This document shows, one piece after another, positions 12,515-33,819 of a stretch of DNA of 64,000 nucleotides (within the stretch, counting starts at the first letter, position 1; the number at the start of each line of letters is the position of its first letter). The stretch is from Kangiella taiwanensis (lineage in GTDB: Bacteria; Pseudomonadota; Gammaproteobacteria; Enterobacterales; Kangiellaceae). The notes beneath the pieces were generated by a model. That model did not search any database. It saw only the letters and a program-made list of their open reading frames with translations, and was not told the origin of the DNA. The position numbers were made by a program, and so were the translations under genes. Location of the stretch: assembly GCF_020005165.1 (NCBI RefSeq), contig NZ_JAHCLT010000002.1, forward strand, positions 372,001 through 436,000, written 5' to 3'.

Positions 12515-13048
12515 ATGATTGTAAGAAAACTACGATTACGTAACGGATGGTCACAAGAACAACTCGCCGAAATGACCGGACTCAGCGTCCGCACCATTCA
12601 GCGTATTGAACGCGGCCAACCCGCCAGCCTAGAAAGTCAGAAAGCTCTCGCTGCTGTATTTGAAGTGGATATCGCCACGTTTCAACCTCCTGAGTTAAAA
12701 CACACTCAACCTCAGGAACAGCAAACCAAGGAGCCTGTTATGAACACAACTAACACTAACGAATCTACTGAATTAGAAAAACGCCCAGTCGAAGAAGTGA
12801 CTGATGAGGAGGCAGATGCCATGGAGTACGTCAAAGGCATCAAAGACTTCTATGGACATATCGTGTTTTACATCATCTTCACTGTAATATTTATTTTTAC
12901 AGGAAAAATTTCAGAGATGCTTATCCCATGGGGTGCTTGGACACTTGGCGTCATTATCCACGGCCTCCAAGCCTACGAAGTCATCAACATCTTCAACATC
13001 AACTGGGAAAAGAAAATGGTCGAAAAGCGCTTGAAGAAAAAGCTTTAG
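12515..13048 (+). CDS. XRE-family HTH regulator fused to a 2TM membrane domain
   Basis: Residues 1-55 are an XRE helix-turn-helix (LRLRNGWSQEQLAEMTGLSV, then RTIQRIERG). A polar linker covers about 56-105, and a 2TM domain follows with segments near 113-131 and 138-156 and a lysine-rich C-terminus. This is the known HTH plus 2TM architecture, a membrane-anchored DNA-binding protein. An internal AAGGAG at 12728-12733 sits exactly 6 nt before the in-frame ATG of Met76, stronger than the site before Met1, so a 102-aa version lacking the HTH may also be made. Downstream lies a palindromic operator and a structured micropeptide transcript that it may control (inference). Confidence 0.85.
   Translation: MIVRKLRLRNGWSQEQLAEMTGLSVRTIQRIERGQPASLESQKALAAVFEVDIATFQPPELKHTQPQEQQTKEPVMNTTNTNESTELEKRPVEEVTDEEADAMEYVKGIKDFYGHIVFYIIFTVIFIFTGKISEMLIPWGAWTLGVIIHGLQAYEVINIFNINWEKKMVEKRLKKKL
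12728..12742 (+). promoter_or_regulatory. internal ribosome binding site inside the XRE-2TM gene
   Basis: AAGGAG, a 6-nt spacer and an in-frame ATG (12740-12742, Met76) lie in the linker just before the 2TM domain. Translation from here would give the membrane domain alone. Confidence 0.5.
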
Positions 13049-13090: not shown

Positions 13091-13126
13091 TAAGCTTGTT
13101 TCTAGCAAAAATTATACTATAACCAC

Positions 13127-13145
13127 CAACTCATCGGATGAGTTG
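13127..13145. promoter_or_regulatory. 19-bp perfect palindromic operator overlapping a -35 box
   Basis: CAACTCATCGGATGAGTTG has 9-bp arms around a single central G. Its right end overlaps the first three bases of the -35 hexamer at 13143-13148, the classic position for a repressor. Nine of its bases recur at the predicted promoter of the XRE-2TM gene upstream. Confidence 0.7.
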
Positions 13146-13171
13146 ACACCCTAACAAATCTATACTATAAC
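13143..13171 (+). promoter_or_regulatory. near-consensus sigma70 promoter of the micropeptide unit
   Basis: A perfect TTGACA (13143-13148), a 17-nt spacer and TATAAC (13166-13171) place the start near 13178. The 11-mer TATACTATAAC that holds this -10 also occurs 48 bp upstream (13113-13123), perhaps a weaker tandem promoter. Confidence 0.75.
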
Positions 13172-13177
13172 AATATA

Positions 13178-13437
13178 TAAGCTTTCTCGAGCCCGCAGGA
13201 GCGGATACCCCGAGTAAGTCTAGAAGTACAATTAAAGCAATGGCTCGAATACTCAACCGTGTTGAACTCGAATACCTATGTTCCCTGATTGGTAAGATGC
13301 TTCGATGGTAACAATCTTACTGTTATCTAAACCGAAGAGTAGGAATTGCAAAACCTACTCTTCGCGTCGTTGGTCAGCGACGTAAAATTTAGGTTATTAC
13401 ACCTGAGCTGGCTTGGGTATTACACGGAGAACAAATC
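13178..13437 (+). ncRNA. structured leader or small RNA with serial hairpins
   Basis: This 260-nt stretch follows the strong promoter and contains no long frame. Hairpins seen in order are CCGC-AGGA-GCGG (13193-13204), whose GGA loop resembles a CsrA/RsmA site; TCAAC-CGT-GTTGA around 13251-13264; GTAAGAT with ATCTTAC (13292-13320); the perfect 11-bp stem CGAAGAGTAGG with CCTACTCTTCG (13333-13364); and CGTCG with CGACG immediately after. It leads into the 30-codon ORF at 13438 and a terminator. I do not recognise it as a known RNA family. It may be a regulatory 5' UTR or an independent small RNA. Confidence 0.55.
13240..13311 (+). CDS. possible 23-codon upstream ORF in the structured leader
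   Basis: ATG at 13240 opens a 23-codon frame (begins MARILNRVELEYL, ends GKMLRW) that stops inside the loop of the third hairpin (13292-13320). No clear Shine-Dalgarno precedes it, so translation is doubtful. It has no run of one amino acid, which argues against classical attenuation. It may be translationally coupled or act as a standby element, as the untranslated tisA frame does in the tisB mRNA. Confidence 0.3.
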   Translation: MARILNRVELEYLCSLIGKMLRW

Positions 13438-13530
13438 ATGTTCACCTTTAAGACCCAAAAAATAGAATTAACTATGGATATAGCGTCAATTTTAAAGTCC
13501 TTATCTCCCTTGGTAATCCTATTTATTTAA
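13438..13530 (+). CDS. 30-residue micropeptide with hydrophobic C-terminus
   Basis: ATG at 13438 has GGAGA exactly 7 nt upstream. The peptide starts MFTFKTQKIELT and ends in a hydrophobic stretch, DIASILKSLSPLVILFI, long enough to lie in or partly span a membrane. An alternative start at Met13 would give 18 residues but has no ribosome site. A terminator follows 4 nt after the stop. Promoter, operator, structured leader, small hydrophobic ORF and terminator together make a real gene likely. A type I toxin, a small membrane regulator or a signal peptide are all possible; no known family is recognised. Confidence 0.55.
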   Translation: MFTFKTQKIELTMDIASILKSLSPLVILFI

Positions 13531-13534
13531 AGAG

Positions 13535-13563
13535 TGGGCGACTCAGTCGCCCATATCTTTTAA
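13535..13563 (+). terminator. intrinsic terminator after the micropeptide
   Basis: TGGGCGA and TCGCCCA form a perfect 7-bp stem with a 5-nt loop, followed by TATCTTTT. The next gene starts about 40 nt later, so some readthrough into it is possible. Confidence 0.7.
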
Positions 13564-33092: not shown

Positions 33093-33215
33093 AATAAAAT
33101 TCTCCGAATTTCGGGTTAAGCCTCCACAAATCCCATTTCCCGACCCCGACAGTCTCTTCAAAAGAGTCTTACTGGCGGAGCACCCCGGCAAATGTGCCGA
33201 TTTGTGTGTGGATTT
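33093..33215 (-). promoter_or_regulatory. probable rpsB leader RNA
   Basis: On the minus strand the region before rpsB holds hairpins CGGCA-CATT-TGCCG and a near-perfect GACTCTT/AAGAGAC stem, then GGGGTCGGG, ahead of the ribosome site. S2 is known to repress its own operon through the rpsB leader in gammaproteobacteria. The position and foldability fit this, but I cannot confirm the family's consensus. Confidence 0.5.
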
Positions 33216-33321
33216 TAAGTAAATAATCGTATTTGTAGCTCAATAATTGTGCGGGTTTAAACGCACTTTCGAGCCACGGCGCGCTTTATACCATTTTTCA
33301 GGGGTTGAGGCAATCATTTTC

Positions 33322-33572: not shown

Positions 33573-33646
33573 CAAAAGAAGTCCACCCTACATTGAGGTT
33601 ATGCTCTGCATAACTACCTTCGGATACTAAAATCACTTAACGCACC

Positions 33647-33704
33647 GTGAAATACAGTCCTTCCATGGCCTGAATTTCACTATTTGAATCATCCAAGATT
33701 CAAA
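33647..33704. repeat. two adjacent hairpins closing the repeat cluster
   Basis: GTGAAATACAG pairs with CTGAATTTCAC (one mismatch) at 33647-33680, and TTTGAATC pairs perfectly with GATTCAAA at 33683-33704. With the repeats upstream they fill the gene-free stretch from 33.2 to 33.8 kb. I see no credible coding frame there. Confidence 0.55.
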
Positions 33705-33819
33705 TTGCTATGATTTTCTTAATCCTCAGCTCAATGTAAGGGTTCACTGGAGCAAGCCTGCACTTTAAGGAACAAAACCTCAACTTACGACCAGCTCAGA
33801 GCTTAGAAACTTGTAATAA

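Follow-up and report, generated by a model that had tools for sequence, protein, structure and literature searches.

A rare family of small genes combines a conserved pseudoknotted leader RNA with a short hydrophobic peptide

The mRNA of the toxin gene tisB carries a 5' pseudoknot that is required for binding of S1 and the 30S subunit, and its ribosome-binding site (RBS) is sequestered, according to PMC7708055. In the same paper, 5' pseudoknots are predicted for zor/orz and shoB/ohsC, whose antitoxins pair far upstream of the RBS, and its authors propose the same pseudoknot requirement for zor and shoB. On the side of mobile DNA, PMC11014356 describes 29 gene-less integron cassettes, most of which show promoter activity; its authors found no highly conserved small peptides in them.

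Here, we analyzed a 64,000-nt stretch of the Kangiella taiwanensis genome (referred to as the window). An initial annotation had read in it an uncharacterized small-peptide gene with a structured leader. The palindrome, the TTGACA-N17-TATAAC promoter, the leader, its hairpins, both open reading frames and the GGAGA site all lie exactly where that annotation put them (Table 1). It had also suggested looking for peptide conservation and covarying stems in relatives. Both were found, and the reading of an uncharacterized gene is borne out by the conserved peptide and the covarying stems of 13 copies. We refer to the locus and its relatives as the MFT element.

Table 1. Features of the MFT element in the window
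Feature	Position	Strand	Remark
19-bp palindrome	13127..13145	.	9-nt arms and 1-nt center; overlaps the -35 box
Promoter TTGACA-17-TATAAC	13143..13171	+	-35 TTGACA 13143-13148, 17-nt spacer, -10 TATAAC 13166-13171
Structured leader, 260 nt	13178..13437	+	start inferred from the promoter
21-nt block with small hairpin CCGC-AGGA-GCGG	13189..13209	+	identical in G000, G014 and G013 (Kangiella-group copies)
P1 long-range helix, 5' strand	13223..13228	+	pairs with 13298-13303
23-codon upstream ORF	13240-13311	+	in the window and the near-identical sister G014 only
Pseudoknot stem 1, 5' strand GUAAGA	13292..13297	+	pairs with 13315-13320
P1 long-range helix, 3' strand	13298..13303	+	pairs with 13223-13228
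Pseudoknot stem 2 (H1), 5' strand	13306..13313	+	
Pseudoknot stem 1, 3' strand UCUUAC	13315..13320	+	located in the H1 loop
Pseudoknot stem 2 (H1), 3' strand	13321..13328	+	
Hairpin H2	13333..13364	+	perfect 11-bp stem 13333-13343/13354-13364 in the window
Hairpin H3 CGUCG..CGACG	13365..13382	+	
Hairpin H4 UUUAGG/CCUGAG	13388..13407	+	excludes H4'
Hairpin H4' CCUGAG-CUGG-CUUGGG	13402..13417	+	excludes H4
Predicted RBS hairpin GG.GAACA..UGUUC.CC	13426..13446	+	prediction without shuffle control
30-codon peptide gene MFTFKTQKIELTMDIASILKSLSPLVILFI	13438..13530	+	GGAGA at 13426-13430, 7 nt before the start
3' hairpin with U tract, terminator-like	13534..13561	+	hairpin 13535-13553, 4 nt past the stop, short U tract after it

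The 13 distinct copies come from Kangiella, Moritella, Vibrio, Glaciecola, Psychromonas, a Saccharospirillum metagenome-assembled genome (MAG), other genomes and viral contigs, with G014/L056, L045/L052 and L048/L049/L051 each counted once; the homologous copies have their parts in the same order. Folding of the window transcript 13178-13563 beats 100 of 100 shuffled sequences (z = -4.5). This signal localizes to 13289-13437 (z = -3.7), and the segment 13178-13300 by itself shows no excess over shuffles (z = -0.06). H4 and H4' have the strand CCUGAG in common and are mutually exclusive. In the minimum free energy structure of 13289-13437, the two strands of pseudoknot stem 1 instead make a nested alternative hairpin, and therefore stems 1 and 2 could alternate rather than form one pseudoknot.

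Comparison of the copies reveals that helix P1 is conserved in the leader, together with an H-type pseudoknot and other hairpins. In a set of 11 copies aligned by sequence only with MAFFT, 26 pairs (stems 1 and 2, H3 and H4') were counted. Here, 95.1% of 284 cells are paired, with 45 double changes against a shuffle mean of 14.2 (0/500), and sliding the pairing partner lowers the paired fraction to 28-44%. Adding P1 and copy G1101 gives a second set of 12 sequences, in which 91.8% of 378 cells are paired, with 58 double changes against a shuffle mean of 19.4 (0/500) and 37-46% paired after sliding. Except for G1101, the sequences used for counting are also those in which the structure was recognized by eye, and this favors the structure over the slides. 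In the 12-sequence set, pseudoknot stem 1 is paired in 97.1% of cells and stem 2 in 86.0%, and both covary. H4 is paired in 87.9% of cells and H4' in 100%; H2 varies among the relatives, and in the unadjusted alignment 55.5% of its cells pair.

The two strands of stem 1 are GUAAGA/UCUUAC for the window, GUAUCA/UGAUAC for vL047, GUUCCA/UGGAAC for vL048 and GUACGA/UCGUAC for Vibrio, a set of letter changes that would be hard to get without real pairing. Copy G1101 was found at E = 2.7e-31 by model R1, in which neither P1 nor stem 1 is represented by base pairs and the 5' strand of P1 is missing altogether. In this copy, 6/6 P1 pairs are formed. Four of its six stem 1 columns can be scored and all of them pair, while the alignment leaves the other two gapped; by eye, the stem reads GGCCA/UGGUC.

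The peptide is present in 13/13 copies with a length of 29-34 residues, beginning with MFT and carrying a hydrophobic second half. Its best 15-residue hydropathy is 1.83-2.91 in every copy, and TisB reaches 2.64 with the same script. The G013 peptide is 73% identical to that of the window. Among the 37 equal-length pairs, which are non-independent and do not include HyVt and G1101, pS exceeds pN in 36; the sole remaining pair is window/G014, with two differences altogether. This comparison shows purifying selection on the 30-codon frame. Conservation of AUGUUCACC may serve the protein rather than pairing. Searches of Pfam (five peptides), NCBIfam (three) and PHROGs (five) brought no family to threshold, and one peptide has a sub-threshold match to DUF2937 (E = 0.055). 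The initial annotation had counted the 23-codon upstream frame as part of the system. No counterpart of its sequence is seen in the other 11 copies, and this part of the proposal falls away.

Over the RBS, local or full folds run without shuffle control predict the hairpin GG.GAAC..AUGUUC.CC, or an equivalent one, for all 12 copies other than G1101. In predictions of the same uncontrolled kind, the mean unpaired probability of the Shine-Dalgarno (SD) sequence is at most 0.28 in 9/12 copies; in Vibrio (0.68) the SD comes out as mostly open, and in vL047 (0.52) and HyVt (0.44) as half open. By eye, both strands of the hairpin carry changed letters in Vibrio (AAAC/GUUU) and vL050 (GGUA/UACC).

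At the 3' end, the terminator that the initial annotation placed 4 nt past the stop holds for the Kangiella copies, in which a U tract follows the hairpin, but not for 8/10 of the others. The window, G014, G013 and HyVt have 5-6 T in 8, and Vibrio has a partial tract (4). The remaining 8/13 copies have 0-3 T, and therefore the hairpin in most non-Kangiella copies may be a stabilizing end rather than a terminator. We notice that some non-Kangiella 3' ends (e.g. L053, L054 and L086) carry UCUUUGGC or CCGUUGGC after the stop, with no U tract. Judging the pairing by eye, this stretch seemingly pairs with GCC(U)AAA or GCCAA to close the 3' hairpin.

The promoter of the window ranks first in its region in our own scoring with sigma-70 matrices. 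It is absent from the list of a stricter consensus scan, because that scan demands T at the last -10 position and the box here is TATAAC. G013 has the same geometry (TTGACA-17-TATAAA). A perfect palindrome with 9-nt arms and a 1-nt center is expected by chance about 0.24 times per 64 kb by our own arithmetic, which makes the one in the window weak evidence when taken by itself. Its weight comes from G013, where a palindrome with arms of different sequence stands at the same place. The palindrome of the window may be an operator or a 5' hairpin.

Other features were seen around this promoter. A second promoter-like stretch, TTGTTT-16-TATAAC, lies at 13096-13123. It overlaps a sequence 48 nt upstream that nearly repeats the main -10 region (88% of 16 nt), and RNA started by this second stretch would begin within the palindrome. 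The palindrome core ACTCATCNGATGAGT (window 13129-13143) has exact matches in 14/99 relatives. In 8/9 of the loci L090-L098, an LpxC string lies 96-151 nt downstream of this core; in L095, an FtsZ string alone was found. By eye, the core in some of these loci sits within a longer inverted repeat right after a TAATAT box. From these matches, ACTCATCNGATGAGT may be a shared operator or 5' hairpin tying the window promoter to envelope synthesis. The upstream neighbor (12515-13048) is a 177-residue ORF. By eye, its N-terminus resembles a helix-turn-helix and its C-terminal half is hydrophobic, which makes it a candidate regulator. Upstream of the element, both G000 (the window genome) and G013 have a gene that we take to be ogt from its motifs, and in G000 two more ORFs lie between this gene and the element. 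The shared neighborhood suggests inheritance within the genus.

The gene looks mobile, as judged from its settings. The Glaciecola copy adjoins an integron integrase (TIGR02249, E = 3.6e-119) and is followed by an attC-like stretch; a 30-nt unit of this stretch is repeated 1,349 nt on (93%). Copy G1101 lies beside a 98-nt attC-like repeat present five times in 14 kb, the others being 61-72% identical, and the edge of this repeat is 18 nt from the leader end as used. We take these stretches to be attC-like from their repetition and from core motifs; the short pattern GTTRRRY was uninformative for such sites. Two copies are plasmid-borne (Moritella and Vibrio), the Vibrio one near a tyrosine recombinase. 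In L050, a viral contig with phage primase and RusA genes, an attC-like stretch follows the element by eye, and L048 adjoins SbcC- and SbcD-like phage genes. None of the neighbors in vL047 matched a Pfam family.

The element family is rare and patchy. A 501-nt search of 61 genomes gave E < 1e-36 only in G000, in G014 (96% identical) and partly in G013, with the remaining matches at E = 6e-4 or worse. Within the genus, model R1 found the element in 3 of 20 genomes; a hit in G015 (E = 0.009) was taken as an artefact, with 52 nt matched of the 164-position model. Among relatives of the Psychromonas genome, R1 recovered 5/344, and extending the draw to 393 gave these five again. The family of the Glaciecola genome yielded 3/246, including one chance match, and two genera yielded 1/24 and 1/5, each an already known copy. 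A class-wide profile search matched 3/369 genomes: G000 itself, G479, which carries the HyVt-414 copy, and a third by chance. Searches of more than 40 genomes used stricter filters, under which weak copies may be lost. Each of nine records tested holds a single copy.

With the 30-residue peptide as query, tblastn against 72,556 plasmid records gave two unannotated matches (E = 0.4 and 1). Despite the weak E values, these Moritella marina and Vibrio plasmids share the leader motifs, the start and the 3' hairpin. A DNA pattern of the leader end gave five matches in viral contigs, all with the element and in three distinct sequences. In genome contigs it gave six, from Glaciecola, Psychromonas, the Saccharospirillum MAG, HyVt-414, a Kangiella MAG and Hoylesella, the last being a chance match. 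This pattern was exact and records near the window were possibly omitted, so these counts are lower bounds.

Other searches returned known copies or unrelated sequence. The 21-nt Kangiella-group block, with at most three mismatches, occurs at 12 places in 11 of 295 genomes of the order; three are the known copies, and 7 of the other 9, when read, have no MFT architecture. The viral loci L040 and L041, matched by a 17-nt core, lack the leader-end pattern. One phage match of the peptide (tblastn) has E = 5, and a Halopiger plasmid match of the Vibrio peptide (E = 8) lies inside annotated transporter genes. L058-L060, from a relaxed viral pattern, read as coding sequence lacking the element, and L046, L057 and L085 were taken as chance matches after reading. 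A strict viral pattern gave no matches, and another gave known copies only. With the Glaciecola core, blastn matched only Moritella among plasmids and nothing in phages or E. coli genomes. At gathering scores, no Rfam family matches the window element. With E allowed up to 1, Rfam 15 gave no match in the element at 8 homologous loci, and its sole match was a microRNA family outside the element of L045. Elsewhere in the window, t44 and TwoAYGGAY exceed their gathering scores on the minus strand (33115-33228 and 33613-33734). A search of one open-access collection of papers found no text with the letters MFTFKT, MFTLKT, MFTVKT or MFTFKN.

Several explanations can be weighed against these results. 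Chance hairpins beside a spurious ORF might be suspected, since a mechanical list holds 136 ORFs of at least 20 residues in 9 kb, most surely spurious; the 13 conserved distinct copies, the covariation and the purifying selection refute this, and we give it practically no weight. A regulatory RNA with an incidental peptide would suit a locus whose RNA structure is more striking than its peptide. However, frame, start, length and protein sequence are all kept, and such a reading seems quite improbable. A classical type I toxin-antitoxin module, in which a cis-antisense RNA overlaps the mRNA, is a more serious candidate, as the peptide, the leader and the settings fit type I toxins. We searched for a divergent antisense RNA of the istR type up to 500 nt upstream and found none in the 12 copies other than G1101. 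The same search recovered the partner in the tisB control with 1 mismatch in 18; the best match in the window has 3 mismatches and is the duplicated -10 region, and the other copies gave 4 or none. Minus-strand promoter-like sites near +26 to +33 in 4/12 copies (window, G014, vL047 and Psychromonas) speak for an overlapping RNA, but they are weak, fall below the cut-off in 8/12 copies and were scored with no background control. Similar weak sites, also scored with no background control, lie near -258 in 3/12 copies (Psychromonas, Saccharospirillum and HyVt). These promoter-like sites neither support nor exclude an antisense RNA, and we regard the classical module as possible but doubtful.

Alternatively, a riboswitch-like leader sensing a ligand or temperature could control a non-toxic small membrane stress peptide. 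The complex pseudoknotted leader, with mutually exclusive H4 and H4' just ahead of the RBS, would suit such a sensor, as would the failure to find an istR-like antitoxin. In contrast, metabolic riboswitches are unlike a rare and patchy family, and the neighbors that we looked at share no pathway; we consider a sensor of this kind unlikely. Similarly speculative is a toxin whose antitoxin is its own leader. In that case, the pseudoknot and H4/H4' would silence the peptide without an antisense RNA until a direct signal such as a ligand, an ion, temperature or phage takeover of ribosomes releases it. The unit would travel as an integron cassette or phage cargo, perhaps serving abortive infection or competition between phages. 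We consider this unlikely too.

We lean, by a modest degree of belief, towards a small gene complete in itself, belonging to a new RNA-plus-peptide family in mobile settings and encoding an RNA-gated membrane peptide that acts like a type I toxin. A regulatory role of the peptide, the other option named by the initial annotation, is merely conceivable. By analogy, the MFT element likely works like a standby-gated toxin mRNA. The leader fold would close the RBS through the hairpin GG.GAAC..AUGUUC.CC. The pseudoknot, like that of tisB mRNA, might be a landing site for ribosomal protein S1 or the 30S subunit; alternatively, it might be the part that a regulator must alter before translation starts. 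The switch may lie in H4/H4', which immediately precede the RBS hairpin. Once the gate is open, the peptide would enter the inner membrane and lower membrane potential or growth, as type I toxins do. The palindrome on the -35 box may add a layer of transcriptional control in Kangiella.

As the MFT family illustrates, DNA in which no gene is annotated can encode a conserved, folded RNA together with a peptide too small to be annotated. This has relevance to integron arrays, which contain cassettes called gene-less (PMC11014356). The MFT family is unnamed and is a lead towards RNA-controlled toxin-like genes of a new kind. Should the peptide prove to be a toxin that its own leader gates, this is possibly a toxin system with no separate antitoxin. 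It would also be a testable non-enterobacterial case of pseudoknots as a shared need of standby-translated toxin mRNAs, an idea taken from PMC7708055.

Among known systems, the riboswitch-like leaders of Rfam 15 resemble the MFT element in having a large pseudoknotted cis leader ahead of the RBS, whereas the MFT element has no Rfam match. Going by the description in PMC11014356, the Vibrionaceae integron cassettes carry no annotated gene, and routine annotation would likewise see none in an MFT cassette. The zor/orz and shoB/ohsC systems resemble the MFT element, by their description in PMC7708055, in the 5' pseudoknots predicted for them; antitoxins are present in theirs, whereas none was found for the MFT family. 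On the MG1655 tisB locus, R1 with filters off gave no credible match, the best (E = 0.26) being a 36-nt stretch outside tisB. The analogy to tisB drawn by the initial annotation is strengthened by the covarying H-type pseudoknot and the predicted RBS hairpin, which it had not known, although its upstream frame is not conserved. Unlike in tisB, the pseudoknot of the MFT family is tied to the long-range helix P1, and the copies occur in integron, plasmid and phage settings. As an analogue without homology, tisB is functionally the closest: by the description in PMC7708055, both have a short mRNA, a long structured leader, a 5' pseudoknot, a sequestered RBS (predicted here) and a hydrophobic peptide, of 29 residues in TisB.
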